Shown here: positions 45,683 through 62,827 of the stretch, piece after piece
Layout of the letters: each line of letters begins with the position of its first letter
Position numbering within the stretch: the stretch's first letter is position 1
Assembly (NCBI GenBank): GCA_001664005.1
Contig: CP016093.1
Location: 3,649,031-3,713,030 of the forward strand
From: Rhizobiales bacterium NRL2
Lineage (GTDB): Bacteria; Pseudomonadota; Alphaproteobacteria; Minwuiales; Minwuiaceae
DNA: 64,000 bases
Direction: 5' to 3'
Translations under genes and position numbers: made by a program
The notes under the pieces: generated by a model
What the model was told of the DNA's origin: nothing
Seen by the model: the letters and a program-made list of their open reading frames with translations, nothing else
Databases searched by the model: none

Positions 45683-46237
45683 TCAGTGGCTGCCCTTGCC
45701 CAGCACCTGGCGGACGGTCCACCAGAGTATCTTCAGGTCCAGCCAGAGGCTTTGCTCCCGCACATAGCGCAGGTCCAGGGCTGTGCGTTCTCCCGGCCCC
45801 GCCTCGTTGCGGACCAGGGCCTGGGCAAGACCGGTGATGCCGGGCCTGACCCGGTGGCGCTCGCGCCATTCCTCGGGCGCATAGAGTTCCTCCTGCGCCG
45901 GCACGTCGGGGCGCGGGCCGACCAGGCTCATCGAGCCCCCGAGCACGTTCAGGAGCTGCGGCAGCTCGTCGATGCTGGTGCGACGGATGAAGCGCCCGAT
46001 CCGGGTGATGCGGGGGTCGCCCTGCGCGGTGGAGTAACCGCCGATGCGGTCGGCGTCGGCGACCATGGAGCGGAACTTCAGCATCCGGAACGGCCGGCCG
46101 CCGCGGCCGATGCGGACCTGGCGGTAGAGCGCGCCGCCGGGGCTGGTCGACGCCACGGCCAGCGCGACCGCCAGCAGCAGCGGCGACAGCGCCAGCAGGG
46201 CGGCGAGCGAGACGGCGATGTCGAAGGCGCGCTTCAC
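45683..46237 (-). CDS. Initiating sugar-phosphate transferase (PglC/WcaJ catalytic domain type)
   Basis: This 184-residue protein is the short, catalytic-domain-only polyprenyl-phosphate phosphoglycosyl transferase. It has a re-entrant membrane helix at residues 1-27 ([20 protein letters not shown]), the catalytic Asp-Glu region in [19 protein letters not shown], and [13 protein letters not shown]. It attaches the first sugar phosphate to undecaprenyl phosphate in the inner membrane. It starts 4 nt inside the Gfo/Idh gene and probably belongs to the glycan locus that follows. Confidence 0.92.
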
Positions 46238-47166
46238 GGGACGAGTACAGCTCCATTTCCGCCAGCCGAGCGCAGCGCTGCCTCAATGAGTCCCATGGTA
46301 CGGCGCGCCGAAGCCCGGTCGGTGGCCTCGGCCCCACCATCGAGAACCGCGCGATGAAGATCGCGAATCGGATCGTCTCGGTCGGCGACCAACGCGACGA
46401 CAGGCTCGTCGTTTCGCCTGACGAATCCGGCTACAAGGTCGACCTCGAAAGTCTCGTCGGCAGTGTTCACGATCATTCGTCGGCGGCCCGCTCGGTCAAG
46501 ATAGTTCAGTTCCACGGTCGCCGCGCCGCAACGCTCGAAACGGCAGAGCAACGCGAAATGGTCGTCGGTGTCGATCTCCAGACGGCTGCTCCTTCCGCCT
46601 AACGCGGCGACGCTGGTCCAGCCGCCGAACAGCCAGTCGAGAAGGTCGAGTTCGTGACTCAGATCGTTCAGCGCCCCGCCGCCAGCATTTCTGCGCGCCG
46701 ACTCCGTTTCCCGGTAGTCCCGACCGGGCCGCCATGTGGGCAGATACTGACCGACATAGGCCTGCACCGTGATCGCGGTCGCACCGGCCAGCTCCGTCTT
46801 CAGCCATCGCAGCGCCGGGTGGAAGCGGAGTTGATATGCGATGCGGATATCCAGTTCAGGCAGATTCTCCAGCGACTGGCCCGGCGACGACAGCGGCTTT
46901 TCGACCAACACCGGCCCCGTGTGTCCGGCCTCGGCCAACGCCTGGAGATCTTCCAGGTGCCGCGCTGTCTCACCAGCAATGACAGCGTAGTCCGCCGACC
47001 CGTCCGCCAGCGCCGCAGCCACCGAGCGATGGGCGTCGGACGCATGGCGACTGACCTGGGTCACATCGAAGCCCAACCTGGCAAGGATTGCGGAGTGCCG
47101 CTGTCCGATGGAGCCTGCACCCACAACCAGAGCCCGGCCACCGATTTGCTGTTTCTGATCGGTCAT
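46234..47166 (-). CDS. Gfo/Idh/MocA-family oxidoreductase
   Basis: This 310-residue protein has an N-terminal Rossmann domain with VVGAGSIGQRHSAILARLG, the family lysine motif in GPVLVEKPLSS, and a C-terminal domain with GGGALNDLSHELDLLDWL, where the family His lies. It oxidises or reduces a nucleotide-linked or free sugar. ATG 47166 is used; ATG 47181 would add five residues. It is divergent from a PtmA-like SDR by about 40 bp and co-transcribed with the initiating transferase. Oxidoreductases of this type accompany legionaminic-acid genes in the Campylobacter ptm locus. Confidence 0.85.
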   Translation of the reverse strand: MTDQKQQIGGRALVVGAGSIGQRHSAILARLGFDVTQVSRHASDAHRSVAAALADGSADYAVIAGETARHLEDLQALAEAGHTGPVLVEKPLSSPGQSLENLPELDIRIAYQLRFHPALRWLKTELAGATAITVQAYVGQYLPTWRPGRDYRETESARRNAGGGALNDLSHELDLLDWLFGGWTSVAALGGRSSRLEIDTDDHFALLCRFERCGAATVELNYLDRAGRRRMIVNTADETFEVDLVAGFVRRNDEPVVALVADRDDPIRDLHRAVLDGGAEATDRASARRTMGLIEAALRSAGGNGAVLVP

Positions 47167-47206
47167 TTCCCCGCTAGTCATAATGCGAATTCCGGTGGGG
47201 GCGAAG

Positions 47207-47986
47207 ATGATCCGTGAAATGATGTCCCTTGAAGGCCGCGTTGCGCTTGTTTCCGGCGGCGCCGGCCATATCGGGCAGGCAATCGCCACGGGCTTGACGG
47301 AACTGGGCGCAGCCGTGGCGCTGCTCGACCGAGCCGACGAAGTCAACGAGATCGCCGCAGGTCTGGACAGGGCGAGCGGCCACGTCGTCGATCTTTCCGA
47401 CGAAAGGGCCACGCGCCGCGCACTGGTCGATGCCGCCGAGAGGCACGGCCGAATGGACATCCTGATCAACAACGCCGCCTTCGTCGGCACTTCCGATTTG
47501 ACCGGTTGGGCCGAGCCGTTCGAAGGTCAGTCCACCGAGACCTGGCGCAAGGCCATCGAAGTCAACCTGACCGCCGCATTCGCCCTCTGCCAGGAGGCGA
47601 CGCCGCATCTGCGGGCTTCAGGTTCCGGCGCGATCCTGAATGTCGCATCCATCTATGGCGCGCTGGGGCCGGACTGGTCGTTCTACGAAGGAACGCAGAT
47701 GGCCAACCCCGCGGCCTACGCTGCGTCGAAGGGCGGCCTGATCCAGTTGACCCGCTGGCTCGCGACCACCCTGGCGCCGGAAATCCGTGTCAACGCCATC
47801 TGCCCCGGCGGGGTCGGCCGCGGCCAGCCGGAGAGTTTCGTGAAGCGCTATGAAGCCCGCACACCGCTCGGCCGCATGGCGAACGAGAACGATATCGCAG
47901 GCGCGGTGGTGTTCCTCGTCTCGGATACGGCTCGATATATCACCGGCCAGGTGCTGATGGTCGATGGCGGCTTCTCGGCCTGGTAA
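47207..47986 (+). CDS. PtmA-like SDR of nonulosonate-type gene clusters
   Basis: This 259-residue short-chain dehydrogenase has SGGAGHIGQAIATGL as cofactor loop, LINNAA, the catalytic Ser in VASIYGALGPDWSFYEG, Tyr-x-x-x-Lys in AAYAASKGG, and ICPGGVGRGQPESFVKRYEA. The long SIYG..PDWSFYEGT insertion before the Tyr is typical of PtmA-type SDRs linked to flagellin and capsule sugar synthesis. Starts at 47183 and 47219 are also possible; 47207 follows GGGGGCG. It opens the plus-strand side of the glycan locus. Confidence 0.85.
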   Translation: MIREMMSLEGRVALVSGGAGHIGQAIATGLTELGAAVALLDRADEVNEIAAGLDRASGHVVDLSDERATRRALVDAAERHGRMDILINNAAFVGTSDLTGWAEPFEGQSTETWRKAIEVNLTAAFALCQEATPHLRASGSGAILNVASIYGALGPDWSFYEGTQMANPAAYAASKGGLIQLTRWLATTLAPEIRVNAICPGGVGRGQPESFVKRYEARTPLGRMANENDIAGAVVFLVSDTARYITGQVLMVDGGFSAW

Positions 47987-48058
47987 GGCTGCGCGAGATT
48001 GCGGCGGGACCGTGTTTCGGGTAATCCCATCACAACGTATAATCAAGGAGACGCGTGC

Positions 48059-48229: not shown

Positions 48230-48238
48230 GGCCGCCGG

Positions 48239-49267
48239 ATGCCAGGGGAGCGTCAGGGACGCCTGCTCAAACAGCTTCAGAACGAGATGGCGTCGATGAC
48301 GTCAGCCCGGACTATGGACATGTGTCTCGCGAATGTGGAGGTCAACGAACCGCACTACCGCAATGGCCGGTCATTGAAGGAGCTTCGGGATCTCGGGCTC
48401 GGCGAGGGCGACAGCGCCGTGGTGATCGCCGCCGGTCCGTCACTGCGCCGGCGCGACCCGGTGCCGACCCTGGTCGAGACGGGCTATCGCGGCGCCACGG
48501 TGATAACCGAAAGCGCGCTGTCGCATTGTCTGCGGCAGGGGCTGGTGCCCACCTGCGCAGTGTCGGTCGATCCCCATCCGCTGCGTATCGTGCGATGGTT
48601 CGGGGACCCGGATCTGGATGATGGCCGGATGGCAGCGGACGACTATTTTCGGCGCCAGGAGCAGGACCCGAGCTTTGCTGACGAGAAGCGCAAGAACGAT
48701 GAACTGCTCGCCCTGATGGAGGAGTTCGGGCCCCGCATCCACATCGCGCTGGGCACGACTTCGTCACCCGACGTGGTGAAGCGGGTGCACGAGATCGGCA
48801 TGCAGGTCTTCTGGTTCAATCCGATGCTGGACGACCCGGACGAGCCAGGCAGCGTGACGGCGGAGTTGCAGCGTCGCAACGGTCTGCCCTGCATGAACGC
48901 CGGCGGAAATGTAGGCGGCGCTTGCTGGATGCTGGCCCATGCGGTGCTCGGCAAGGCCCGGGTGGCGGTCACCGGCATGGATTTCGGCTACTACGCCGAT
49001 ACGCCGCTCATCAACACACAGTACTACTACGAGGCGCTGAATCTCGCCGGAGAAGCGCATGTCGAGGACCTCTACGTCGACATCTACAACCCTCATCTCG
49101 ACGAATGGTACTTTACCGACCCGGCCTATTACTGGTACCGCTCCGCCTTCATCGAGATGACCGATGATGCCGACTGCGAAACTTGGAACTGCAGTGGCGG
49201 TGGAACGCTGTTCAGCGACCGGATCAATTGGGCGCCGCTGGAGAAATTTCTGGCGGAGGCCGGCTGA
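48239..49267 (+). CDS. DUF115/MptE-like protein (motility accessory factor type)
   Basis: This 342-residue protein carries the DUF115 (MptE-like) core: SAVVIAAGPSLRRRDPVPTL, an ITESALSHCLRQGLVPTCAV strand-helix unit, the acidic VSVDPHPLRI, and NAGGNVGGACWMLAHAVLGK with the following VTGMDFGYYADT. Homologous domains form the catalytic centre of Maf flagellin glycosyltransferases that add pseudaminic or legionaminic acid, but Maf proteins are usually longer, so this is a domain-only version. The C-terminal region is Tyr-rich. It precedes a radical SAM gene by 32 bp. Confidence 0.82.
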   Translation: MPGERQGRLLKQLQNEMASMTSARTMDMCLANVEVNEPHYRNGRSLKELRDLGLGEGDSAVVIAAGPSLRRRDPVPTLVETGYRGATVITESALSHCLRQGLVPTCAVSVDPHPLRIVRWFGDPDLDDGRMAADDYFRRQEQDPSFADEKRKNDELLALMEEFGPRIHIALGTTSSPDVVKRVHEIGMQVFWFNPMLDDPDEPGSVTAELQRRNGLPCMNAGGNVGGACWMLAHAVLGKARVAVTGMDFGYYADTPLINTQYYYEALNLAGEAHVEDLYVDIYNPHLDEWYFTDPAYYWYRSAFIEMTDDADCETWNCSGGGTLFSDRINWAPLEKFLAEAG

Positions 49268-49299
49268 CAGCGACGCCCCCATCCGAAAGGCGGTCGAAC

Positions 49300-50910
49300 A
49301 TGGCCAAGATACTTTTCATCAATCCCGTCGTCCGGGAGGAGGACGTGCCGCGCCACGTGCCCTACGGCATCGCGCTGCTGGCGGCGATCGTCATGGAGAA
49401 GGGCCACCAGGTCCAGGTCTATGACGAGAACGCCTGGCGGCTGGGCACCGAAACACTGGGTGATGTCTGCCGCGCCGACGATTGGGACATCATCGCCTAT
49501 GGTGGGATCACGACGACATACAACTCGATCAAACGCCTGACGAAGATCGCTCGGCGGGAAGCGCCGTCGGCCGTGCAGGTAATGGGCGGAGGCATCCTCA
49601 CCTCGATTCCGCGCGAGATCATGACGTGGCTGCCTGAAGTGGATGTCGGCTGCGTCGGCGAGGGCTTCGTGACCTTTCCCGAGATCTGCGACATGGTCGA
49701 CCGGGGCGGCCGCGAGTTCTGGAACATCCAGGGCACCATCTCGCGCGTGCCGGGCCAGGGCCTGAAGCTGTCCCAGATGCGCCAGCTCATCGACGACCTG
49801 GACAACCTCCCCTTCCCCGCTTGGGATCTGTTCCCGCTGGAGGAGGTCTATTTCAAGAACAGCCAGGCGCTGTTTTCCGAGGAAGGCATGCTGGCCTCGC
49901 GACGGCTGGACATCAACGCCAGCTATGGCTGCTCGCTGATCTGCCGTTTCTGCTATCACCTCGGCATCGCCGGCGACATGCGCTACGAGGTGAACGATGC
50001 CGGCGAGACCCAGGTCGCCTTCGACAAGCCGGGCACCTACACCCGCAGCATCCGCTACCACTCGCCCGACTACGTGGCCGAGCTGGTGAAGCACGCCTAC
50101 GACAAGTACAAGATCAATTTCGTCGGGTTCCTGGACGAGAACCTGATGACCATGGACAAGTACTCCGGCCGCACCTGGATGAAGGATATCTGCGACCGCT
50201 GGCATGACTATGGCTTCGCGCCGCGCAACCAGCGCGACGACGGCACCTGGGACGGCATTCACTGGTCCGGAACCAGCCACGCCACGCTCTGCACCAAGGA
50301 CGTCTTGCAGACCATGCGCGCCGCCGGCTGCTCGCACCTGGTCTATGGCTACGAATCCTTCGCGCCGCACGTGCTGAAGACCATCGGCAAGGGCGCCACG
50401 CGGGAGTCCAACATCCGCAGCTTCTTCTGGACCCTGGATGCCGGCATCCGGCCGATCCCCAACCAGATCATCGGCTTCCCGAACGAGGACTTCGATTCCA
50501 TCCGCATGTCGATGGACGCCTGGGACGAGCTGGGAATCGTGGTCAAGCCGCACTTCGCAACGCCCTATCCGGGCTCGGAGTGGTTCACCACCTACCGCAA
50601 GCGGATCGAGGGCCAGTACGATGGCAATCTGGAGCAATTCATCATCGATCTGGGCGATGCTTCGTCGATATCGGCGGTGATCAGCCACAACTTCAATGCC
50701 ATCGAGCTGCTGGGTCTGCGCGAGGCGATGCTGGCCCGCGACAAGCGGCGTATCGACGAATACGAGAAGATCTGGCGGCGCAATCACGACATCGCGGAGG
50801 GCGAGCCCTCGACCCTGCTGGGTGAGCGCATGACCGCCGCCTTCCTGCGCGACGAAGAGAAGGTGAAGTCTGCGATCGAGAATTCCTCGGCGCAGGACGC
50901 CGTGGTCTGA
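49300..50910 (+). CDS. B12-binding-type radical SAM protein
   Basis: This 536-residue protein combines an N-terminal cobalamin-binding-like Rossmann domain (ILFINPVVREEDVPRHVPYG, then VMGGGILTS and GCVGEGFVTFPEI) with a radical SAM domain whose cluster motif CSLICRFC is Cys211, Cys215 and Cys218. The substrate-binding barrel continues through FVGFLDENLMTMDKY and QIIGFPNEDFDSIRMSM. The B12 domain lacks the DxHxxG motif, so cobalamin use is unsure. Such enzymes methylate unactivated carbons or rearrange sugars and lipids. It lies between the DUF115 gene and the CMP-sugar synthetase gene. Confidence 0.88.
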   Translation: MAKILFINPVVREEDVPRHVPYGIALLAAIVMEKGHQVQVYDENAWRLGTETLGDVCRADDWDIIAYGGITTTYNSIKRLTKIARREAPSAVQVMGGGILTSIPREIMTWLPEVDVGCVGEGFVTFPEICDMVDRGGREFWNIQGTISRVPGQGLKLSQMRQLIDDLDNLPFPAWDLFPLEEVYFKNSQALFSEEGMLASRRLDINASYGCSLICRFCYHLGIAGDMRYEVNDAGETQVAFDKPGTYTRSIRYHSPDYVAELVKHAYDKYKINFVGFLDENLMTMDKYSGRTWMKDICDRWHDYGFAPRNQRDDGTWDGIHWSGTSHATLCTKDVLQTMRAAGCSHLVYGYESFAPHVLKTIGKGATRESNIRSFFWTLDAGIRPIPNQIIGFPNEDFDSIRMSMDAWDELGIVVKPHFATPYPGSEWFTTYRKRIEGQYDGNLEQFIIDLGDASSISAVISHNFNAIELLGLREAMLARDKRRIDEYEKIWRRNHDIAEGEPSTLLGERMTAAFLRDEEKVKSAIENSSAQDAVV

Positions 50911-50920
50911 GCGCGGGCGC

Positions 50921-51631
50921 ATGATCGGCGAACACCGCGTTCTGGCGGTCCTCTGCGGTCGGGGCGGGTCCAAGGGCCTGCCCCGGAAGAATGTACTCGA
51001 CCTCGGTGGCAAGCCGGTAATCGCCTGGTCTGTCGAGGCGGCGCACGCTTCCCGGCTGCTCGACCGCTGTGTTGTTTCCACCGACGACGAGGAGATCGCC
51101 GATGCGGCGCGGAACGCCGGCGGCGACGTGCCGTTTCTCCGCCCCGCCGAGTTGGCGACGGATACGGCGCCGGTGACCGAGGCGATGATTCACGCCGTCG
51201 AAAACCTGCCCGAAAGATACGACATCGTGGTGCTGCTGCACGCGACCTCTCCCTTCCGGACCGGCGGCGACATCGACGATTGCATTTCCATGCTGGTTGA
51301 GACCGGCGCGGAAACATGCGTCACCTTTTCGGAGATGATAAAGCCCCCTAGCTACATAGTGCAGATTGACGAGCGCAGCCGCATGCGACCGCTGGAGGTC
51401 TCCGGACTGCTCCGTCGGCGCCAGGAGACGGTGAAGCATTATCTGCCCAACGCTGCCGTCTACGCAGTCTGGACCGACTTCCTGCTTCGAGAGCGCAAGG
51501 TCTATTCCAAGGATACGGCGGCACTTGTCACGCCGCACGAGCGCGCCATCGACATCGACGGACCACTCGATCTCGAGATCGCCCGCGGCCTGCTCACTCG
51601 CCCCGGCTTCCCGCCAGCAAATGATGCGTAA
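50921..51631 (+). CDS. NeuA-like CMP-nonulosonate cytidylyltransferase
   Basis: This 236-residue protein resembles CMP-sialate/legionaminate/pseudaminate synthetases. It has the CTP-binding CGRGGSKGLPRKNVLDLGGK loop, RCVVSTDDEEIADAARNAG, VVLLHATSPFRTGGDIDD and HYLPNAAVYAVW, plus a C-terminal AIDIDGPLDLEIA. It would activate a nine-carbon sugar for transfer. Its last 11 nt overlap the start of the CysC-like gene. The exact sugar cannot be told; NeuB and NeuC homologues lie 10 kb downstream. Confidence 0.88.
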   Translation: MIGEHRVLAVLCGRGGSKGLPRKNVLDLGGKPVIAWSVEAAHASRLLDRCVVSTDDEEIADAARNAGGDVPFLRPAELATDTAPVTEAMIHAVENLPERYDIVVLLHATSPFRTGGDIDDCISMLVETGAETCVTFSEMIKPPSYIVQIDERSRMRPLEVSGLLRRRQETVKHYLPNAAVYAVWTDFLLRERKVYSKDTAALVTPHERAIDIDGPLDLEIARGLLTRPGFPPANDA

Positions 51632-52190
51632 TGCACAGAACAACATAAGAGGCGGCGTGACACGGCAGGGGCGCACGATCTGGATCACCGGGCTTTCGGG
51701 CGCAGGCAAGTCAACGCTGGCCCGCGCGCTGGTCGACCGGTTACGCCGCGCGGGACAACCGGTGCTGCTGCTCGACGGCGATGAACTGCGCGCAGTGCTC
51801 GGTCCGGACGCGACGGCGGCGCCGAGCCACACGCGTGATTCACGACTGGCGCTGGCGTTGCGCTATGCGCGCCTCTGTCAGCTGATCACAAGCCAGGGAA
51901 ACGACGTGGTGATCGCGACGATCTCCCTCTTCGGAGAGGTGCACGCCTGGAACCGGGCGAACCTGAGCGACTATTTCGAAGTCTTTCTCGACGTGCCTCT
52001 GGACGAATTGCGGCGGCGCGATCCGAAGGGCATCTATAGCCGTTTCGACAGCGGCGAGATCAGCAGCGTCTCCGGACTAGACGTGGCGGTCGACTACCCG
52101 GACGCGCCCGACATGCACCTGCCCTGGGATCCAGAACGGTCCGTCGAAGCGACGCTTGAAGCGGTTCTGGAACGGCTGGGCCGGCGCTGA
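51621..52190 (+). CDS. CysC/adenylylsulfate kinase-like protein
   Basis: This 189-residue P-loop kinase has GLSGAGKS at residues 24-31, LLDGDELRAVL, FLDVPLDELRRRDPKGIYSR and GEISSVSGLDVAVDYPDAP. APS kinases share the RDPKG-Y and G-E-I features, but the usual ISPY/R block is replaced by ISLFGEVHAWNR and the FTGID region is altered, so the substrate may not be adenylylsulfate. Kinases of this type in capsule clusters can act on other nucleotide-linked compounds. It starts inside the cytidylyltransferase gene, so the pair is coupled. Confidence 0.8.
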   Translation: MMRNAQNNIRGGVTRQGRTIWITGLSGAGKSTLARALVDRLRRAGQPVLLLDGDELRAVLGPDATAAPSHTRDSRLALALRYARLCQLITSQGNDVVIATISLFGEVHAWNRANLSDYFEVFLDVPLDELRRRDPKGIYSRFDSGEISSVSGLDVAVDYPDAPDMHLPWDPERSVEATLEAVLERLGRR

Positions 52191-52211
52191 GGCAGGCGGA
52201 CGCCGGGCTGC

Positions 52212-52270: not shown

Positions 52271-52327
52271 GCGATCATGCTGTTGACTTAGACGAGCCTA
52301 AGAAACTGTTGCTCGATAGTAACCTCC

Positions 52328-53575
52328 TCACTGGGCCATGCTTGTCGCCGAAGTAACTTCGGCCAACAAGACTGCGATACGCTGGACCGCATCGGGCGGA
52401 CAGTCGAAGGCGTCGTCCGCATCCACCGCCCTGCGCTTCCGAACAAGGCAGGCCGCGACAGCGGCCTCAAGGTCCGCGTCGTGACGGACGACATGTGCAA
52501 CGGGACTGCGGTCATAAGGCAGTATGCTCTTCTCCCCCGTCGAGTCCCAGACCACCAGCGACACGCCGTTGAAAATGGCGAGCAGCCCTACCGTCGAGCG
52601 GAAAACGATCACCGCATCGGAAGCCTTGACGACGGAGACAATATCCTCGTCGCGCAGCAGAAGCACCCTTTCGGCGACCGCCGGGAATTCGCGACGGAAT
52701 TCGTCCAGACCAATGGAAGGATGCAGCTTGACCGCGAAGCGCCAGCGATCTGCGGTTTTCGCTGCCAGTTCCCCGATGACCCGCACCTGTGACGCCAGAT
52801 GTCCACGATGGCCCGGCGTCATGTACGTCACCAATGGTCTCGAATCCGTCGGTAGCTCGAGCGGGACGGCGTCTTGGAACTCCCGACGCCAGTGCGCGAA
52901 GACCGGCTGACCAGTGACACGGACAGAATGTGACGGCAGACCCGCCTTGAGCATCCGCGCGCGAACAAAGTCGTTCAGCACGCCTATTTGGGAGGGACGG
53001 TCGTCGGAGGCGATTTGCACACAGTTCTCCTCCAGCGGCCGCTCCCCCAGCATGCCGTAGCCGTAGTGATCCTCGATCAGAATACCAGGAACGCCCCGGG
53101 CCCGGGCCACACGCATCGCCGCCAATTCCATGCGGACCAAACAGGTGACGACGACAGCGGCCGGCCGCTCCTGCTCGAACACACGGTCGAGAAAGCGCGT
53201 CGGCTGGAAAACGCGGCGGCCCTCGCGGCCATAGGCCTCGCGCGCCGCAGTCTCGCCCCGTTCCGCGATCAGGTCAGTCATTGACACGCCCAAATAGGCA
53301 CAAGACTCTTCGAACGATACGCCCGAGGACGGCTCCCAAAAAGGCTCCGCGAGTTCGCGGCCAATCTGAAGCGCATCCTCGTAGCCCGCCATCGGCAGAT
53401 AGTCCGACACCTGCCGGTAAGGCACCTTATGCGGGCGGAGAATCTGAGGCGCGTTGGTTAAAGCCAGCACCAGGGGATCGAATCGCGGGTCGGCCCGCAA
53501 TAACGGATAGACATGACGGACGATGTCGGCGTGGCCACCGCCATAGGTCACGAACAGGATGCGCCGGGCACTCAT
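52328..53575 (-). CDS. GT-B-fold glycosyltransferase-like protein
   Basis: This 415-residue protein looks like a GT-B glycosyltransferase or a relative of capsule/2-epimerase proteins. It starts with RRILFVTYGGGHADIVRHVY, a Gly-rich loop after the first strand. The second half has RPLVTYMTPGHRGHLASQV, FAVKLHPSIGLDEF and SDAVIVFRSTVGLLAIFNG, the usual nucleotide-sugar binding half. Sugar and acceptor are unknown. It is the last gene of the minus-strand operon with the amidotransferase, HisH- and HisF-like genes, overlapping the latter by 4 nt. Confidence 0.72.
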   Translation of the reverse strand: MSARRILFVTYGGGHADIVRHVYPLLRADPRFDPLVLALTNAPQILRPHKVPYRQVSDYLPMAGYEDALQIGRELAEPFWEPSSGVSFEESCAYLGVSMTDLIAERGETAAREAYGREGRRVFQPTRFLDRVFEQERPAAVVVTCLVRMELAAMRVARARGVPGILIEDHYGYGMLGERPLEENCVQIASDDRPSQIGVLNDFVRARMLKAGLPSHSVRVTGQPVFAHWRREFQDAVPLELPTDSRPLVTYMTPGHRGHLASQVRVIGELAAKTADRWRFAVKLHPSIGLDEFRREFPAVAERVLLLRDEDIVSVVKASDAVIVFRSTVGLLAIFNGVSLVVWDSTGEKSILPYDRSPVAHVVRHDADLEAAVAACLVRKRRAVDADDAFDCPPDAVQRIAVLLAEVTSATSMAQ

Positions 53576-54987: not shown

Positions 54988-56103
54988 TCATTCGACCTCG
55001 AATTTCGGCGCCCAGCGGTTGTTGGACTTGCGGAACAGGTCGCGGTTGACCCAGCGGTCGAGCACCGCGTCGAATTCCTCCTGGGTCATCCGGTAGTAGT
55101 CCAGATAAGTTTCGATGAATTCTTCAGGATACTGTCCGTCATACATCCGGACCAGATGCACCGCCTGCTCGCGCGTCATCGCGCCGCGCCGTATCTCAAT
55201 GCCAGCGTCCTGCAGCGCGCGGCCGAAGCCGAATTTCAGATACATCAGATAGGTGTGGAGCGCGTAGAGTGCCTGATCGTTCTGGGCGAAGTTCGTGAAG
55301 GTGCCAGAGTTCGCCATGTCCACCTCCTTCAGTCCGCAATATTCCTTGGCGACCAGATAGTTGCGGTAGGAATCCCAAGGCTCGAAATAACTGAGGTGGG
55401 TCAGCGTGAGCTGATGGTCGCCAAACTCCTTGTCGGTCGGGAACTTCCAGAAATAGAGGTCGCCGTCCGGTACCTCGAGCAGTGAGCTGACCTTGTCATA
55501 GCCACGCTCCAGATAGACGCGCTTGATGTATTCCACATCGAAGAACGGCCGATTCATTGTCTCGGTGGAGCCGCCGTATTCGATATCGCCATCCTCGGCA
55601 TACATGACCAGGGGGATATTGAAGTTGAGCGCCGTGCGAATCACTGACGAAAGGATGGCAATCAGCCAGCCGTAATAGGGGAAGCCCTTCTCGATGAAAC
55701 CGTACTTGTTGTAGAGCTGCATCGTCCGCGCGTTCGGCGTGACGTGGACATGGTCGTAGCCGCTCTCGATGAACGCCTTCAGGTTCTCGTTGCCGATCTC
55801 CATCTCCAGCGGCGGACGGACGGTCACCGTCAGCGGGTTCATTCCGTATTCGTGCTTCATCTTGTAGGCGACGTACGAGCCGTCCTTCCCGCCGCTGACC
55901 GGCACGAGAACGTCGAATCCCCCTGTCGTGGAACGGTGCTTCTCCAGCAGATCGCGCAGCTGCTGCTGTCTCGGGCCCCAGTCCATGGTCTTCTTGGCTT
56001 CCATCCACTGGCAGGCGTTGCACCACCCCCGTTCGTCCCACTCGATCCGGGGACGGGTCGACATGTTGAGGCAGTTCTTGCACCAGAAGACGTCAGCGGT
56101 CAT
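54988..56103 (-). CDS. N-acetyl sugar amidotransferase (WbpG/PseA-type)
   Basis: This 371-residue enzyme replaces the oxygen of an N-acetyl group with an amidine nitrogen, forming acetamidino sugars. The N-terminal zinc ribbon has Cys8, Cys11, Cys28 and Cys31, and the PP-loop ATP site is SGGKDGSY at residues 70-77. LVMYAEDGDIEYGGSTET follows mid-protein. Relatives include PseA (pseudaminic acid) and WbpG (O-antigen). It heads an operon with HisH-, HisF- and glycosyltransferase-like genes. The sugar acted on is unproved. Confidence 0.92.
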   Translation of the reverse strand: MTADVFWCKNCLNMSTRPRIEWDERGWCNACQWMEAKKTMDWGPRQQQLRDLLEKHRSTTGGFDVLVPVSGGKDGSYVAYKMKHEYGMNPLTVTVRPPLEMEIGNENLKAFIESGYDHVHVTPNARTMQLYNKYGFIEKGFPYYGWLIAILSSVIRTALNFNIPLVMYAEDGDIEYGGSTETMNRPFFDVEYIKRVYLERGYDKVSSLLEVPDGDLYFWKFPTDKEFGDHQLTLTHLSYFEPWDSYRNYLVAKEYCGLKEVDMANSGTFTNFAQNDQALYALHTYLMYLKFGFGRALQDAGIEIRRGAMTREQAVHLVRMYDGQYPEEFIETYLDYYRMTQEEFDAVLDRWVNRDLFRKSNNRWAPKFEVE

Positions 56104-56397: not shown

Positions 56398-56401
56398 ATG
56401 A
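56198..56401 (+). CDS. Possible 67-residue upstream ORF through the octamer repeats
   Basis: ATG 56198 has TGAGGA four bases upstream and reads through all five octamers, giving a repeated Ile-Ala-Ala-Ser-Pro-His-Arg-Arg-like sequence. It ends at TGA 56399-56401, overlapping the ATG of the next gene as ATGA. With one octamer fewer, the same start would be in frame with that gene. It may exist to couple or switch downstream translation. Protein function, if any, is unlikely. Confidence 0.3.
   Translation: MKEAWLCRLIAASPHRRIAASPHPATLQHGRQKTTRVLDDQARFQEGAAGPRPRRGKTYLLVRSANP
56228..56267. repeat. Five tandem copies of GCCGCATC
   Basis: Five perfect 8-bp units (GCCGCATC) in a row, 40 bp. The unit is not a multiple of three, so gain or loss of copies by slipped-strand replication would shift the reading frame of the ORF from ATG 56198 relative to the gene at 56398. 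Confidence 0.95.
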
Positions 56402-57396
56402 ACGACATTCTGCCCATACTTTCCAAGCCGCCATTGCACGATGATGTCGTCCTGATCGACGGGTTGGCCCGTTCCGGCAAAAAGCTGACTTGCCGGCTGA
56501 CCTGCTGGCTGGAGGACATGGATTTTTTCCAGTATATCTTCTGGGTTGAGCGTTTCAGCTATCTGCACTTGCTTGGCGCCATCCGAACCGACGTCGCTGT
56601 CAGCAACATCCAGGCCGCGATCGACGAAGCAATCTATTCGCGCTCCATTGGCCGGATGATGAATACACGGCTGTCGGATGCTTCCTCCGTTCTCAGTTCA
56701 CCAGAACCTGAACTCTATCAGCAACGCGCCCGTGAACCGGACGGTTCTGTGGCGATGGAAAAGGTAAGAACCGCCAGACGGATGATGCCATTTCAGACAC
56801 ACTATCTGATGGCAAATCCTGGACCTTCCATGCAGGCGGTCAGGACACTGAAGATGCTGCATGTGTCCCGGCACCCAATTGCCATTGCCGAAGACTGGTT
56901 ACGCCGTGGTTGGGGCGACCGCTATGGTGTCGATCCGATCGCATTTGAAGTACTGGTCGAGAAGAATGGCCAGACCGTCCCTTGGTTCGCAGCCTTTAGT
57001 GACGACGACTACGCTGCGATGAAGCCATCTGAACGCTGTATCGCAAATGTAATCGACCTGCAGGCGATGAACGACAGTGGGTTTGAAACGCTCAACGGCG
57101 CAGAGAAGGCCCGTGTGTATCGCTTCTGTTTTGAAGACCTGCTTTCCTCCACCGACGATATGGTCACCGATATCGCCAGTTTTCTTGGAAGAAAGCCCAG
57201 GTACGACCTAGGACTTGTGCTGGAGGAACAGAAACTGCCAAACCGAGGTGCAGCAGGGCCATACGATCACGAACTCGCGAAACTAATGCTAACCGCGTCA
57301 GAGCCATTTGTTGCACGGCTGGCAAAGGCCTCGCGGGCGTACGAGGCCCGTTGGGGGCTGGAGCCGACTATGTTTCCGGAGTACCGAAACAGATGA
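56398..57396 (+). CDS. Sulfotransferase-like protein
   Basis: This 332-residue protein has a sulfotransferase-like PAPS loop as GLARSGKK (residues 22-29) and the second signature SRHPIAIAED around residues 157-166. The usual 5'-phosphosulfate loop ends in Thr-Thr, here Lys-Lys-Leu, so activity is uncertain. Codon usage is less GC-rich than in neighbours, suggesting acquisition. No ribosome site precedes ATG 56398; translation may depend on the overlapping upstream ORF with the octamer repeats. It overlaps the methyltransferase start by 4 nt. Confidence 0.68.
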   Translation: MNDILPILSKPPLHDDVVLIDGLARSGKKLTCRLTCWLEDMDFFQYIFWVERFSYLHLLGAIRTDVAVSNIQAAIDEAIYSRSIGRMMNTRLSDASSVLSSPEPELYQQRAREPDGSVAMEKVRTARRMMPFQTHYLMANPGPSMQAVRTLKMLHVSRHPIAIAEDWLRRGWGDRYGVDPIAFEVLVEKNGQTVPWFAAFSDDDYAAMKPSERCIANVIDLQAMNDSGFETLNGAEKARVYRFCFEDLLSSTDDMVTDIASFLGRKPRYDLGLVLEEQKLPNRGAAGPYDHELAKLMLTASEPFVARLAKASRAYEARWGLEPTMFPEYRNR

Positions 57397-58340
57397 GCGA
57401 TCAAGTCTATCGCACTTATTTCGAGGCCGAGGCCGAACAGTGGATGGACGAAAGCTACAAGGGCGATGCGTCCGTCTATCCCACGGCCGAACACCGCGCC
57501 CGTATCGTGCTGCGCCACGCAGGACAGGCCGGGCGTTCCCTGCGAATTGCCGATCTGGGATGCGGCGGCGGCGGCGTTTCCATTCCGCTGGCGCGCGCAG
57601 GCCACACCGTGGTCGGCGTGGACCGGTCCGAGGCTATGCTGGAGCTGGCGCGCGACAGTACCAATGGGCAGGACGCGGAGGTCGCCGCACGGTTGGAGTT
57701 CAAGCTCGGTGATGTGCTCGATCCGCCTGTCGATCCCGAATCTTTTGACATGGTAATTGCCATGGGTCTGATCGGATACCTAGAAGACGAGTCCCTGCTT
57801 TTTCAAGTGGCATACAAGTTGTTGGCGGATCGGGGCGAACTGTTGGTCTCCTGCCGGAATCGCCTGTTCAACCTGAACAGCCTTAGCTGGCGTACCCGGC
57901 GGGAGTTCGGCAAGGACGATATCGACGCCCTGCTTGCGGAGATGGAAGGCTGCTACAAGCCCGTGTCTAATAGCAGCCTGGTCGCCTTCCTTGCCCGGCT
58001 GGATGCCGTTGTGCGCGACCTGCGCGAGCAACTGGATGACCAGATTAAATCTGGCGATGACAGTCCGGCTTCTGCGATGGTCAATCTCTTCGAGCCAGCG
58101 GCGGATCGCATTGAAGCGCGTCAACAGACCCCTGCATTGATGGCAGCCCTTGCCAAAGCGAACGGGTTCGGGATGGGCAAGGTCTGGGGTGTTCATCCAC
58201 ACATGCTTGATCCCAACGCCAATGGGTTGCTACCTGCAGGTGCCTTCGTCGCCTTTTCGAAGGCGATGGAAGCACTGGACGAGGAACCAGTCAGTCTCGC
58301 TTGGTCGTCGGTCTTCATCGGGCAGTATGTAAAGCGCTGA
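57393..58340 (+). CDS. Class I SAM-dependent methyltransferase
   Basis: This 315-residue methyltransferase has motif I IADLGCGGGGVSIPL, motif II VVGVDRSEAM, and VIAMGLIGYLEDESLLFQVA as post-motif. It probably methylates a sugar or lipid in the glycan pathway, but the family is broad. It overlaps the sulfotransferase-like stop (ATGA) and precedes a second sulfotransferase-like gene by 33 bp, so the three are likely one transcript. Confidence 0.85.
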   Translation: MSDQVYRTYFEAEAEQWMDESYKGDASVYPTAEHRARIVLRHAGQAGRSLRIADLGCGGGGVSIPLARAGHTVVGVDRSEAMLELARDSTNGQDAEVAARLEFKLGDVLDPPVDPESFDMVIAMGLIGYLEDESLLFQVAYKLLADRGELLVSCRNRLFNLNSLSWRTRREFGKDDIDALLAEMEGCYKPVSNSSLVAFLARLDAVVRDLREQLDDQIKSGDDSPASAMVNLFEPAADRIEARQQTPALMAALAKANGFGMGKVWGVHPHMLDPNANGLLPAGAFVAFSKAMEALDEEPVSLAWSSVFIGQYVKR

Positions 58341-58373
58341 TCGCGTACCATTTGGCCAAACCGCGAGCGCCGC

Positions 58374-59096
58374 ATGAAACTGCCCTTCGGCGAAAGAACC
58401 AATCTCTGGATCCACCGCCGCTACCGGGAACTGCTTTGGCCGAACTACGGCCTGCACAGCCTCTACCTGGCGGCGCGGGGGCGGCGTGTCGAGCCGTCGT
58501 GCGCGGATCTCACGGTCGAGGGCTTCGGCCGCTCCGGCAACACTTATGTCGTCCACGCCCTGGAACTGAGCCAGCAGCGCCCGCTGCGCATCATCAGCCA
58601 CTTCCACTACCCGATCGCGGTCGGGCGCCCGGCGCGCGCGGGAGTGCCGGTTTGCCTCGTGCTGCGGCATCCGCTCGACAGCATCGCGTCCTACTGCCAG
58701 TACAGCGACTGGTCGCCCCAGCGCTTCATCGACGATTTCGTGGCCTATCACACTTATGTCCGGCCCTATCTCGACAGCATCTGCGTCGCTCGGTTCGAGG
58801 ATTTCACGGTCGACTTCAACTGCCTGGTCCGGGCCATGAACGGCGTCTACGGACCGATCCTGGACGAGGTCGAGGACCAGAACGGGTTCAGCGACCGGGT
58901 GTTCCGTCGGATCGAAGCCCGCCAGCCCGGCGGGCGCGTCGACGAGCTCCGCGTCCACCGGCCGTCGGAACTGCGGCGACGCCGCAAGCCGGAGATCGTT
59001 GCCGACATCGAGGCGAACTACGGTCGCGGCATGGCCGAGGTGATGGCGCTCTACGACGTCTACCGCCAGCGCGCCGAAGCGCTGCAGCCGGCATGA
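58374..59096 (+). CDS. Sulfotransferase-like protein
   Basis: This 240-residue protein shows a better sulfotransferase signature: GFGRSGNT at residues 50-57 for the 5'-phosphosulfate loop and VLRHPLDSIASYCQYSDW as the 3'-phosphate block. ARFEDFTVDF follows, as in bacterial sulfotransferases. It would move sulfate from PAPS to a carbohydrate or lipid hydroxyl in the cytoplasm. No PAPS-making CysND genes are in the window. It starts 33 bp after the methyltransferase. Confidence 0.8.
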   Translation: MKLPFGERTNLWIHRRYRELLWPNYGLHSLYLAARGRRVEPSCADLTVEGFGRSGNTYVVHALELSQQRPLRIISHFHYPIAVGRPARAGVPVCLVLRHPLDSIASYCQYSDWSPQRFIDDFVAYHTYVRPYLDSICVARFEDFTVDFNCLVRAMNGVYGPILDEVEDQNGFSDRVFRRIEARQPGGRVDELRVHRPSELRRRRKPEIVADIEANYGRGMAEVMALYDVYRQRAEALQPA

Positions 59097-59136
59097 CTGC
59101 CAACCCGCCAGCCGGTGCGGCCGCGGGAAGCCGCCG

Positions 59137-60651
59137 GTGCTGAAGTCGGTCCTGAAATCCGGATTCGCCGTCGCCGCGGCCGTCCTCCTCGGCCGGGTGC
59201 TAGGCTTTGGGCGCGACGCCACCGTGGCCGCGACCTTCGGCATCGACCGATCGGCCGACATCGCGGTCTTCCTCATCGGATTGCCGGACTTTCTGATCAA
59301 CGTTCTCGGCGCGGGCGGGTTCACCGCCATTCTGGTCGTCCACTACCGCCAGAAGCCGGCGGAGGCGGCGCGGCTGATGTTCCAGGCCGGCCTAGCCGTA
59401 TTGCTGGGGGTCGGCGCGCTGGCGCTGGTCCTGATCGCCCTGCGCGGCGGTCTGGTCGACGCCCTGGCGCCCGGCTTCGACGCCGCGGCCCGCGAGCGCA
59501 CCGTCGACCTGCTGCCGCTGGTCCTGCTGTCGGCGCCGATCGCGGCCATGACCGGCGCATCGATCGGCTTCCTGCAGGCGAAGGGCCGCTTTTTTGTCGC
59601 CGCCTGCGGCGCGGCCATCATCAACACGGTGCTGATCGCGGCCATGCTCGGCGCGCAGCCCGGCCGGACGCTGAGTGTGCTGGCCGCGGCCATCCTCGCT
59701 GGCGCGCTGCTGCGCTGGCTGGTGCAGGCCGCCGTGATCGGGCGCGAAGGGATCGGCGGGATCGCCTTCCGGCCCTGGCTGGTCGACCGCTCCCTGATGA
59801 AGGCCTTCGTCCGGGCCGCGGCAACCGAGGCGGTCGTCTTCTTCTATCCCTTCGCGCTCCGCGCCATCGCCACGCTGTTCGGCGTCGGCGCCCTCGCATC
59901 GGTCAACTACGCGACCAAGCTGGTGCAGTTGCCGCTGGGCGTCGTCGTCATGACCCTGACGACGATCCTCCTGCCCCAGCTTGCGGGCCTCGCCCCGCGG
60001 GAAAGGAATGCCGCCGACCTGGGCCCGTTCCGCCGTCTGGCCGTTCATGGCCAGTTCTGGATCCTAGTGCTGAGCGCGATGGCGGTCGCCGTCCTCGTGG
60101 TGCACGGCAGCTGGCTGGTCCGGCTGGCCTTCGGCTGGGGCGAGATCGGCCCGGACGGCCTCGCCGCCATCGCCAGTTTCACCGCGGTCTTCAGCCTCAG
60201 CCTGCTGCCGATGGGGTTGAACGTCTTCCTGCGCCGCGCTCTCAATGCGCTGGGTGAGACAAAGTCTCCAATGTCGGCGGAAATCGCCGGCTTCGCAACC
60301 TTCATAGCGAGTGCATTCGCGGTCATCGCCGCGGATGGTCCGCTGGAGGCCGTACTGCTCTGCGCCGCTGGGGGTTGCTTCGTCTCCATGGTCATGCTGC
60401 TCGCTGCCATGTCGCAGCGCGGCGTGCCGCTCGTGCAGGAGTTCCGCCGTCCCGGCCTCTGGGCGGCCGTGGTTCTGTCGGCGCTGGCGACGGCCGCGCC
60501 GGGCCTGATTCTGGAGCGGCTGGCCCCCGGCCACGCCTGGCTGCCCGCTATCGCCATCGCCCTCGGCGGATTGGCCGGCCTATGCGCGGCGCTGGCGGTG
60601 AACCGCGAGGCGCGGGCGGCGGTCAGGACCCTTTTGCCGCGCCGTCAGTAG
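59137..60651 (+). CDS. MurJ/MviN-family lipid flippase
   Basis: This 504-residue polytopic protein of the MOP superfamily has about fourteen membrane segments and starts with GTG 59137. The MurJ-like N-terminal LGRVLGFGRDATVAATFG is present, as are further conserved basic residues in the central cavity region (FFYPFALRAIATLFGVGALA). It could be the housekeeping lipid II flippase, or a glycan-linked homologue moving the lipid-linked unit built here. It lies 40 bp after the sulfotransferase gene and converges on neuC with a 7-bp overlap. Confidence 0.85.
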   Translation: MLKSVLKSGFAVAAAVLLGRVLGFGRDATVAATFGIDRSADIAVFLIGLPDFLINVLGAGGFTAILVVHYRQKPAEAARLMFQAGLAVLLGVGALALVLIALRGGLVDALAPGFDAAARERTVDLLPLVLLSAPIAAMTGASIGFLQAKGRFFVAACGAAIINTVLIAAMLGAQPGRTLSVLAAAILAGALLRWLVQAAVIGREGIGGIAFRPWLVDRSLMKAFVRAAATEAVVFFYPFALRAIATLFGVGALASVNYATKLVQLPLGVVVMTLTTILLPQLAGLAPRERNAADLGPFRRLAVHGQFWILVLSAMAVAVLVVHGSWLVRLAFGWGEIGPDGLAAIASFTAVFSLSLLPMGLNVFLRRALNALGETKSPMSAEIAGFATFIASAFAVIAADGPLEAVLLCAAGGCFVSMVMLLAAMSQRGVPLVQEFRRPGLWAAVVLSALATAAPGLILERLAPGHAWLPAIAIALGGLAGLCAALAVNREARAAVRTLLPRRQ

Positions 60652-61799
60652 CTGTTGAGCTTGCGGAAGACCGCGGGCGTCAGGTCCACGGTCTCCAGGA
60701 AGCCGGCGATGCGCGGCGCGGTCCGTCCGTCACCCCAGAGATTGGTGTACTCGCCGCGCCCTGCCGCCAGCGCCTGCCGGATTCCCGCCGCCAGAGACGC
60801 CGGCCTGTAGTCCGGAACGTCGATCACGTTGGCGTTGCGCAGGCGTGCATTCTGGCGGTCGCCGACATTGACGCAGGGAATGCCCAGGCTGGCCGATTCG
60901 ATAACGCCGCTGGAGGAATTGCCGATCAGCAGATCGGCCGCCGCCAGCCAGTCGAGATATGCGGGGCGCGACAGGTGCGTCTCCCGGCGCAGCGCCACCG
61001 GCGATACTTCCGCGAAGCGGTCCGCCGCCCGGCGCACGGCGACGCCGCCGGCGTCCGAATTCGGGGCCAGCAGCAGCATCTGCAGACCCTCGGCCGCCAC
61101 AGCCGCGAGCACCGCCGTCATCTGCTGGCCGCCGGCGGCGGCGTCCTGGACGACGGGATGAAACAGCACCACGGCCACCGGCCGCGCCGGATCCAGCCCG
61201 GCCTCGGCGCAGAGCGCCGCGCGGTCGCGGCCGCCGCGTGCGCCGATGTCGTCCAGCCCCGGCGCGCCCACCACCCGGATGCGCCAGTCTTCCTCGCCCA
61301 TGCGCCGCAGCCGTTCGGCGGCATCCTCGGTCGCGGCGAGATGGAGGTGACAAAGCTTGGAAATCGCGTGACGCACGGGCTCGTCGACGGTGCCCGACCG
61401 CTCGCCGCCATGTATGTGGACGCCGGCGGCGCCCGCGTGCAGGGCAGCGATGGCGCCGGCCAGCATCTCGCCGCGGTCGCCCAGCAGCAGCACCATGTCC
61501 GGGCGCTCGGCAGCGAAGGAGCGGGACAGCGCGACCACCATCCGCCCGATGGCCGCACTCATCGTCCCGGCGTCGTCCATTTCCCCGTCGTCGGCGTGCT
61601 CCGCCGGCACCAGGTCGCGGATGGTGAATCCGCTCGCCTCGATCTCGCTCACGGTGCGGCCATGACCGGGCGAGAGATGCATGCCCGTCACCACCAGCGA
61701 GAGATCCAGGCCGGCACGGCCATCGATCTCGGCCAGCGTCCGCCGCATCAGTCCGAAATCCGCCCGCGTGCCGGTGACGTAGACCACGCGCCGGGTCAT
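60645..61799 (-). CDS. neuC: NeuC-type UDP/GDP-HexNAc 2-epimerase (hydrolysing)
   Basis: This 384-residue enzyme of the NeuC/LegG/NnaA group removes the nucleotide and inverts C2 to yield a ManNAc-type sugar. Visible are YVTGTRADFGLMRRTL at the N-terminus, LLLGDRGEMLAGAIAAL, the VHIHGGERSGTVDEPVRHAI active-site block with SKLCHLHLAAT, and LIGNSSSGVIES. It overlaps neuB by 4 nt. Substrate could be UDP-GlcNAc (sialate pathway) or the 2,4-diacetamido-trideoxy sugar (legionaminate pathway). Confidence 0.93.
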   Translation of the reverse strand: MTRRVVYVTGTRADFGLMRRTLAEIDGRAGLDLSLVVTGMHLSPGHGRTVSEIEASGFTIRDLVPAEHADDGEMDDAGTMSAAIGRMVVALSRSFAAERPDMVLLLGDRGEMLAGAIAALHAGAAGVHIHGGERSGTVDEPVRHAISKLCHLHLAATEDAAERLRRMGEEDWRIRVVGAPGLDDIGARGGRDRAALCAEAGLDPARPVAVVLFHPVVQDAAAGGQQMTAVLAAVAAEGLQMLLLAPNSDAGGVAVRRAADRFAEVSPVALRRETHLSRPAYLDWLAAADLLIGNSSSGVIESASLGIPCVNVGDRQNARLRNANVIDVPDYRPASLAAGIRQALAAGRGEYTNLWGDGRTAPRIAGFLETVDLTPAVFRKLNSY

Positions 61800-62827
61800 G
61801 GCTGAAGATCGTTCCATTCGATCGGCGCCCCCGCGCGGCCGGCCGCCTTCAGCCGCCGGCCCGCCAATTCGTCCAGGTGCCGGGGATGCAGTCCCGTCTC
61901 CGGCCGCAGCACGGCGATGTCACCGGGCGTCAGCACGTGACCGGCTGGCAGGTCGCGCTTCAGCTTCAGGCCCCGACGGGCGACGGCGCGGGTCTCGAGT
62001 TCGTCGGGCTGCGGTATCTTCTCGCCGCTGCCCAGCGCCTGCGCCACTTCGCGGATGCCGGCGGCCATCGCCGCAAAGTCGTCCGGCTCCAGGGAGGCGG
62101 CGTGATCCGGCCCGGCCATGGTCCGGTCCAGGGTGAGGTGCTTTTCGATCGCCACCGCACCGAGCGCCACCGCCGCCAGCGCCGCCGCGGCGCCCAGCGT
62201 GTGATCGGAATAGCCCACCGCCCCGCCATAACGCTCCCGCAAGGTCGTGATCGCCCGCAGGTTGGCCTGCTCGACCGGGGTCGGATAGGCGGAGACGCAA
62301 TGAAGGATGGTCAGCCGGTCCCGGACGGGCGCCAGAGCCGCGACGGCCTCGTCGATCTCGGCGAGATCGGCCATGCCCGTCGACAGGATCACGGGCCGTC
62401 CATAGGCCGCCACCTGGCGCAGCAGCGGCAGATTGGTGACATCGCCGGAACCGATCTTGAAGCGGTCCACGCCCAGCTCGGCAAGAGTCTCGGCCGATCC
62501 GGCATCGAATGGCGTCGACAGGAATTCGATCCCCAGTTCGCCGCAGCAATCGTAGAGCGCGGCGAGCGCCGCCGCGGGCAGGGCGAGACGGCGCAGCATC
62601 TCGCGCTGATCGTCGATCCCTGTCGCCCGCTTCTGGTAGGCCGCGGTGGCGGCGTCGGCGGCGACCAGCGCATCCGGATCGAAGGTCTGGAACTTGACCG
62701 CGTCGGCGCCGGCGCGGGCGGCCGCGCGCACCAGTTCCAGGGCCAGTTCCGGGTCGCCATTGTGATTGACGCCGGCCTCGGCGATCACGAGGACGTCCGG
62801 CGGCGATGCGGTGTCGGCAGCGTTCAT
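61796..62827 (-). CDS. neuB: NeuB-type nonulosonate synthase
   Basis: NeuB joins a ManNAc-type sugar to phosphoenolpyruvate, giving sialic, legionaminic or pseudaminic acid. The 343 residues contain IAEAGVNHNGDPELALELVR, AVKFQTFDPDALVA, KIGSGDVTNLPLLRQVAAYG, LSTGMADLAEIDEAV and YSDHTLG. The C-terminal antifreeze-like SAF domain starts near residue 275 (LKLKRDLPAGHVLTPGDIAV). ATG 62827 was chosen because the NeuB core begins about twelve residues later. It is transcribed ahead of neuC. Confidence 0.95.
   Translation of the reverse strand: MNAADTASPPDVLVIAEAGVNHNGDPELALELVRAAARAGADAVKFQTFDPDALVAADAATAAYQKRATGIDDQREMLRRLALPAAALAALYDCCGELGIEFLSTPFDAGSAETLAELGVDRFKIGSGDVTNLPLLRQVAAYGRPVILSTGMADLAEIDEAVAALAPVRDRLTILHCVSAYPTPVEQANLRAITTLRERYGGAVGYSDHTLGAAAALAAVALGAVAIEKHLTLDRTMAGPDHAASLEPDDFAAMAAGIREVAQALGSGEKIPQPDELETRAVARRGLKLKRDLPAGHVLTPGDIAVLRPETGLHPRHLDELAGRRLKAAGRAGAPIEWNDLQP

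Follow-up and report, generated by a model that had tools for sequence, protein, structure and literature searches.

The stretch analyzed here, referred to in the following as the window (64,000 nucleotides, C1:3649031-3713030 of the closed 4.70 Mb genome of Rhizobiales bacterium NRL2), carries at positions 45683-62827 a gene set for a nine-carbon, sialic-acid-like sugar (a nonulosonate). It is probably a locus for a legionaminate (Leg)-type, amidino-decorated envelope glycan, mostly ordinary in kind, and we consider it an envelope-glycan locus of a known kind because congeners share its syntenic core. Genes were assigned to families with Pfam and NCBIfam/TIGR models at their curated cut-offs, with matches in the PDB and with synteny in relatives. 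The original prediction, made from the sequence alone, had listed NeuA-, NeuB- and NeuC-like genes, an amidotransferase set, two sulfotransferase-like genes, a CysC-like kinase, two methyltransferase-type enzymes and a MurJ-family flippase; in addition, we found a Gfo/Idh/MocA and short-chain dehydrogenase (SDR) pair, a DUF115 protein, a short phosphoglycosyltransferase (PGT) and a GT-B-like gene. The genes are, in map order:

45683..46237, minus strand: short bacterial sugar transferase, PGT catalytic domain, 184 aa (PF02397, 220.6 bits)
46234..47166, minus strand: Gfo/Idh/MocA oxidoreductase, PtmF-like (PF22725 and PF01408, above cut-offs)
47183..47986, plus strand: SDR dehydrogenase, PtmA-like (PF13561, 175 bits)
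48239..49267, plus strand: DUF115/MptE-like protein, Maf-type domain, 342 aa (PF01973, 40 bits, cut-off 34.6)
49300..50910, plus strand: B12-binding radical S-adenosylmethionine (SAM) enzyme (PF02310, 51.9 bits, and PF04055, 46.3 bits, both above cut-off)
50921..51631, plus strand: cytidine monophosphate (CMP)-nonulosonate synthetase, NeuA/LegF-type (PF02348, 84.6 bits, cut-off 22.6)
51621..52190, plus strand: CysC-like kinase (PRK05541, 190 bits, cut-off 127; best PDB match M. tuberculosis CysC)
52328..53575, minus strand: putative GT-B-type glycosyltransferase, weak match (PF05159, 19.2 bits, just under the cut-off of 20)
53572..54354, minus strand: HisF-like, WbuZ-type subunit of the acetamidino set (PF00977, 130 bits, cut-off 23.6)
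54354..54977, minus strand: HisH-like glutaminase subunit of the acetamidino set (TIGR01855, 211 bits, cut-off 105)
54988..56103, minus strand: N-acetyl sugar amidotransferase of the WbuX/PseA/PtmG type (TIGR03573, 331.5 bits, cut-off 203)
56398..57396, plus strand: orphan of 332 aa with a sulfotransferase-like 5' motif (LIDGLARSGKK near the N-terminus)
57393..58340, plus strand: SAM-dependent methyltransferase, overlapping the orphan gene (PF13649, 64 bits; DLGCGGG motif)
58374..59096, plus strand: sulfotransferase-like protein, 240 aa (motifs VEGFGRSGNT and RHPLDSIAS)
59137..60651, plus strand: MurJ-family flippase, glycan-locus paralogue (PF03023, 132.6 bits)
60645..61799, minus strand: NeuC/LegG hydrolysing 2-epimerase (TIGR03568, 342 bits, cut-off 236)
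61796..62827, minus strand: NeuB of the legionaminate-synthase (LegI) type (PF03102, 302 bits; specificity region; tree)

The same locus occurs in relatives, namely Minwuia metagenome-assembled genomes and CP018227 (Kordiimonadales bacterium IMCC3096). In five core loci of this group (L033, L034, L035, L039 and L057, with L034, L035 and L057 cut by contig ends), the gene order is the same as in the window: PGT, DUF115, radical SAM, NeuA, HisH-HisF-WbuX, glycosyltransferase, MurJ, NeuC and NeuB, with the relative strands kept. Copies of the PGT, 56-73% identical, are found at the corresponding end in the core loci L035, L039, L077 and L080, and MurJ relatives with 54-55% identity occupy the same place in the core loci. 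The MurJ-family assignment of the original prediction was confirmed by the Pfam match; with TIGR01695 the protein scored 139.8 bits, under the 235.6 cut-off. A gene 24-30% similar to the GT-B-like gene is present in core loci, and one of these matches PF04464/PF02350. L039 has the MocA-SDR pair instead of the amidotransferase set, and the window has both. Relative to the core loci, the window adds the CysC-like kinase, the orphan, the methyltransferase and the 240-aa gene, all absent from the relatives' cores, and has a different WbuX set. The orphan has the lowest GC content of the locus (55%; 62% at third codon positions), and native codon usage is weak in the methyltransferase, glycosyltransferase and CysC-like genes, a pattern that recently acquired cargo would be expected to show. 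An acyl-AMP ligase-type gene, absent from the window, stands divergent from neuB in two relatives (L057:5585-7393 and L035:1439-3247).

The NeuB-, NeuC- and NeuA-like genes were confirmed by matches to PF03102, TIGR03568 and PF02348, respectively. NeuB scored 397.2 bits with TIGR03569, just short of the 399.65 cut-off, and has relatives of 66-69% identity in the five core loci. Positions 70-85 of nmNeuB are reported to determine C4-C6 specificity (PMC7371886). In the window NeuB this region reads AYQKRATGIDDQREMLRRLALP, resembling NeuB proteins flanked by LegB and LegC, such as that of L036 (SAAQRETTGTSGSQRDMLRGLVLS), and it does not match the same region of the meningococcal NeuB (EAKQVIPGNADVSIYEIMERCALN). 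In the NeuB tree, the window copy and its five core relatives formed a 100/100 clade nested in a 25-row group (81/88) consisting mostly of LegB/LegC-flanked NeuB proteins. The best PDB match of NeuA was 1eyr, the meningococcal CMP-N-acetylneuraminate (Neu5Ac) synthetase (E 1e-31). The PtmF-like MocA gene has a 66% relative in L039 and relatives of 33-46% beside NeuA and an SDR in the Leg loci L037 and L045; for the PtmA-like SDR, the corresponding values are 75% in L039 and 41-52% in L045/L037. Homologues of the MocA-NeuA-SDR trio accompany LegB/LegC in L037, L044, L045 and L060, and ptmF, ptmB and ptmA are likewise grouped in Campylobacter. The best reading of these sequences is that the product would be of the Leg type. 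A pseudaminate (Pse) product was also considered and ruled out, since the Pse set lies elsewhere in the genome and the NeuB is without the Pse pattern.

The second component of the locus is the acetamidino set. WbuX carries an SGGKDG loop and CxxC pairs, and HisH retains the catalytic residues (GICVG, QFHVE). HisF scored 211 bits with the WbuZ model TIGR03572, under its 299.7 cut-off, and for that reason we call it WbuZ-like only. The original prediction had claimed a complete WbpG/PseA-HisH-HisF-like set, subject to the objection that the HisH/HisF pair might complete histidine synthesis. The set is indeed complete, and the histidine role was ruled out because the canonical hisB-H-A-F region, with hisH and two His_biosynth genes (194.5 bits for HisH; 282 and 287.5 bits for the His_biosynth genes), lies apart at 4585.9-4588.7 kb and because the window HisF has lost a catalytic aspartate. 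This protein is 30% identical to the canonical HisF and has TLIHD in place of CLDVK, while the Asp of SVDYR/AIDAK is retained; the replaced CLDV aspartate is one of the two catalytic Asp residues of imidazole glycerol phosphate synthase. HisH and HisF are companions of WbuX. An amidine group is probably present on the sugar of the locus, and there is good support for the originally proposed nine-carbon sugar bearing an acetamidino group as the likely class of product. The window WbuX is only 29-31% identical to those of the core relatives and was therefore exchanged or acquired independently, an argument for selection by the glycan for a set of this kind.

The most unusual element of the locus is the module formed by the DUF115 and B12-binding radical SAM genes. 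Among 385 alphaproteobacterial genomes sampled, the DUF115 gene was found in seven, with 51-77% identity outside its own genome. In all seven, a B12 radical SAM gene follows directly on the same strand, 15-36 bases on; these partners are 66-82% identical outside their own genome, and the gene contexts of the pair differ. Nonulosonate genes adjoin the pair in five of the seven genomes. In the sixth (G231), the pair is on a short contig with a sugar nucleotidyltransferase next door, and in the seventh (G053; L082:28-9361) no nonulosonate genes were found on the 36 kb contig carrying it. The G053 pair has cobalamin adenosyltransferase, TonB receptor and FecCD-type permease genes a few kb off.

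The radical SAM enzyme has a CxxxCxxC motif at residue 211. The nearest PDB match of its profile was AprD4, a sugar diol dehydratase (E 7e-6), followed weakly by others including TokK. It reached no NCBIfam cut-off and so is no curated methyltransferase equivalog. Of the two methyltransferase-type enzymes originally described, one is a normal SAM methyltransferase and the other is this radical SAM enzyme, which need not methylate. A natural guess is that it alters the sugar or its acceptor. The DUF115 protein does not have the full-length Maf architecture, and no further domain was found in its 342 aa. In the literature searched, no paper joined the terms "nonulosonic" and "radical SAM". A bolder idea, which we regard as unlikely, is that the two gene products would alter the acetamidino nonulosonate, or else its acceptor, at a carbon centre, by C-methylation or deoxygenation, and subsequently carry out the transfer, with the glycan also being sulfated in this organism. 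If true, sialic-acid-like sugar chemistry would thereby gain its first corrinoid-dependent step, together with a sulfated amidino-nonulosonate.

The genes that might be connected with sulfate gave less definite results. The CysC-like gene begins at an ATGA within the 3' end of neuA, overlapping the neuA stop codon. Its product is above the cut-offs of Pfam APS_kinase (105 bits, cut-off 21) and PRK05541 and below that of the adenosine 5'-phosphosulfate (APS) kinase equivalog TIGR00455 (108 vs. 138.7 bits), so that the original assignment stood at the family level and not at the level of the equivalog. A second APS kinase is encoded at 0.278 Mb (225 bits, part of a long open frame), and the supply of 3'-phosphoadenosine 5'-phosphosulfate (PAPS) therefore need not depend on the window kinase. 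The Campylobacter protein Cj1415, annotated as CysC, is a cytidine diphosphate (CDP)-amidate kinase.

The two sulfotransferase-like genes of the original prediction were not confirmed at the family level: neither the 332-aa orphan nor the 240-aa protein had a significant Pfam, NCBIfam or PDB match, and what evidence there is lies at the level of motifs. Both carry a 5'-phosphosulfate-binding (5'-PSB)-like motif and the 240-aa protein additionally a 3'-phosphate-binding (3'-PB)-like motif, in patterns that, like those for the HisH, WbuX, radical SAM and methyltransferase motifs, were composed after the sequences had been read, so that shuffle counts provide no independent evidence. Searches of 398 genomes of the phylum and of plasmid and viral collections returned no relative of the orphan. 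The 240-aa protein has four distant relatives, among which PRSGN-like and RxPxxS motifs are kept; within this family of five, two proteins give a marginal match to Sulfotransfer_3 (PF13469, best E 0.01), and comparison of the family profile with the PDB returned sulfotransferases solely among chance-level matches. By hhalign the two candidates are unrelated to each other, and single-sequence AlphaFold models of the two had a mean pLDDT of 33 and 36, with no usable fold. Sulfate as a possible substituent, the remaining part of the original proposal, is thus weakly supported, by two proteins with motif-level evidence at most and by a CysC-like kinase whose substrate is uncertain; judged from sequence, sulfation of the glycan is possible. 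Bacterial nonulosonates and sulfation have been reported together for granular sludge, in work where we found no mention of both on one sugar (PMC10483923).

LegB, LegC and LegH are absent from the window, as the original prediction stated, and are not found beside the core in the five relatives. Elsewhere in the genome, where it was suggested that they be sought, three full-length DegT aminotransferases are encoded. One of these, at 1.364 Mb, adjoins flgK and is LegC-type; it is 2.3 Mb from the window locus. It scored 369 bits with TIGR04181 (LegC), under the cut-off of 420, and 258 with the PseC model; with TIGR04181, the LegC of a Leg locus reaches a similar 382 bits. The protein carries a CBS domain and is conserved at 64-68% in three congeners. 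The Leg precursor genes are thus apparently split over the chromosome. Beside flgK, the stretch L021:6937-11020 holds AsnB, an HpcH/HpaI-type protein and the CBS-LegC-type aminotransferase. LegB-like matches at L140 were rejected, as they look like ordinary nucleotide-sugar dehydratase and nucleotidyltransferase genes.

From the gene families, their synteny and co-occurrence and the type of NeuB, we propose with moderate confidence that the product of the locus is a CMP-activated nonulosonate of the legionaminate type, which is converted to its acetamidino form and built into an undecaprenyl-linked surface glycan exported by the MurJ-like flippase; every reaction and the order of steps are put forward conditionally. 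NeuC would free a 2-epimerised amino sugar from its nucleotide, NeuB would condense it with phosphoenolpyruvate, and NeuA would form the CMP sugar. WbuX, with HisH as glutaminase and HisF as ammonia channel, would amidinate the nonulosonate at the CMP-sugar or free-acid stage, turning one N-acetyl group into an acetamidino group. The short PGT would start the chain on undecaprenyl phosphate, the DUF115 protein, the GT-B-like protein or both would transfer the nonulosonate, and the MurJ-like flippase would export the undecaprenyl-linked glycan. The B12 radical SAM enzyme and the SAM methyltransferase would make further modifications, and the two sulfotransferase-like proteins with the CysC-like kinase may add sulfate.

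Several observations weigh against this proposal. Neither the window nor the ≈40 kb around four loci yielded LegB, LegH or PtmE/LegX, the rest of the genome not having been searched. The placement of NeuB depends on the 81/88 fork and on a single long-branched Neu5Ac reference. NeuC is equally near to the GDP/UDP-N,N'-diacetylbacillosamine epimerase 5zlr (155 bits) and to human GNE, 4zht (150 bits), so that comparison with the PDB does not distinguish its substrate. The WbuX family is broad, and HisH-HisF sets of congeners lie beside an aminotransferase in O-antigen loci (L117, L119 and L120). The missing LegB/LegC/LegH, here and beside the five core relatives, and the nearness of NeuC to GNE as much as to LegG would suit a sialate-type route, the fallback of the original prediction, in which NeuC makes N-acetylmannosamine from UDP-N-acetylglucosamine, NeuB makes Neu5Ac and amidination comes later. 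We consider this quite unlikely, and less likely than a legionaminate-type product, because NeuB matches LegB/LegC-flanked proteins in the C4-C6 specificity region; the neighbourhoods of its relatives are also LegI-like, PtmA/PtmF-like genes associate with Leg loci, and a LegC-type gene is present in the genome and in congeners. It is somewhat unlikely that the acetamidino set modifies another amino sugar of the same glycan. The breadth of WbuX, the O-antigen sets and the lack of an amidotransferase set in L039 would agree with such a target; against it, sets recur beside NeuB in L033, L035, L057, L036, L038, L040, L059 and L060, another is in the Leg locus L085, the Campylobacter enzymes PtmG and PseA work on CMP-nonulosonates, and the window WbuX groups in the tree with WbuX from nonulosonate loci, a placement to be taken with caution because of its long branch.

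Whether the locus involves sulfate at all is a closer question, and we lean only slightly against the view that it does not, with the CysC-like kinase phosphorylating another nucleotide and the sulfotransferase-like proteins doing something else. The TIGR00455 result, the lack of Pfam and PDB matches for either candidate, the PAPS already possible through the second APS kinase and the absence of both candidates and the kinase from the congeners' core loci all speak for that view. On the other side are the match to the PRK05541 adenylyl-sulfate kinase model, the 5'-PSB-like motif in both candidates and the 3'-PB-like motif in one, the two 240-aa family members that touch Sulfotransfer_3, and the presence of all three genes in one locus. 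Finally, DUF115 is the Maf-family domain, and Maf enzymes transfer nonulosonates to flagellin (PMC11339370); the DUF115-radical SAM pair also adjoins an FlmG-like gene in G274. A flagellin glycosylation locus with DUF115 as its Maf transferase is nevertheless very unlikely, given a separate FlmG nonulosonate locus in the genome, the PGT and flippase of the window, which the cytoplasmic flagellin route does not need, and a DUF115 protein of 342 aa in which no other Maf domain was found.

The legionaminate-type envelope glycan locus proposed here can be compared with several known systems. Like the Campylobacter jejuni/coli ptm/leg locus, it has LegI, LegG, a CMP-Leg synthetase, PtmA- and PtmF-like genes, a PtmG-type amidotransferase, a methyltransferase and a DUF115/Maf-type gene. 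In contrast to that locus, it is without LegB, LegC, LegH and PtmE, has a dedicated HisH/HisF pair and adds the PGT, the MurJ-like flippase, the B12 radical SAM enzyme and the CysC-like and sulfotransferase-like genes. Both Campylobacter and Legionella offer known cases of an acetamidino-nonulosonate joined by a methyltransferase; in the latter genus, the Legionella pneumophila sg1 O-chain locus combines acetimidoyl-legionaminate with an N-methyltransferase (PMC13306086). The Legionella locus differs from the window in its transport. We know of no B12 radical SAM or sulfotransferase-like gene in it. The original claim that the combination is undescribed accordingly holds, within the literature searched, for sulfate and a nonulosonate in one bacterial locus, and does not hold for an acetamidino-nonulosonate with a methyltransferase. 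The three-gene acetamidino set of the window is also found in Pseudomonas aeruginosa as WbpG-HisH2-HisF2, where the substrate is a hexosamine uronic acid and the genes are not in a NeuB locus.

The Leg loci of G274 (L085) and G351 (L084) share with the window the DUF115-radical SAM pair, NeuA and NeuC. L085 comprises LegB-LegC-LegG, PtmE-like, NeuA and HisH-HisF-WbuX genes, the pair and an FlmG-like gene; L084 has LegB-LegC-LegG, the pair and NeuA before the contig ends. Both differ from the window in having LegB and LegC, and no PGT or MurJ gene was seen in the stretch examined. If the proposed reading is right, bacterial sialic-acid-like sugar chemistry comes to include a corrinoid-dependent radical enzyme and perhaps sulfate as well, in a defined gene set from a group with closed genomes, and mass spectrometry could identify the product.

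NeuB is encoded three times in the genome, once in the window and once each in locus B and locus C, so that one genome runs three nonulosonate loci that differ in type. Locus C, at 0.804-0.812 Mb (L019:14375-16539, L020:1149-2234), contains pseB, pseC and pseI above their curated cut-offs and is a pseudaminate locus, in keeping with the suggestion that pseB and pseC be sought elsewhere in the genome. Locus B, at 2.436-2.449 Mb (L017:10993-19649, L004:1471-2706, L018:786-4262), encodes an FlmG-type tetratricopeptide repeat protein and NeuB without NeuC, together with a CMP synthetase, MocA, DegT, a dehydratase, GNAT, AsnB, a second WbuX and an acyl-AMP ligase. In Caulobacter, the transferase acting on flagellin is FlmG (PMC7591256). 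Locus B is conserved in the congener G197, and similar clusters are present in L053, L054, L059 and L118. The HisH-HisF(-WbuX-like) sets of the congener loci L117, L119 and L120 occur with MocA, acyltransferase and DegT genes in an ABC-transporter O-antigen locus, and the locus C stretch has non-native codon usage.

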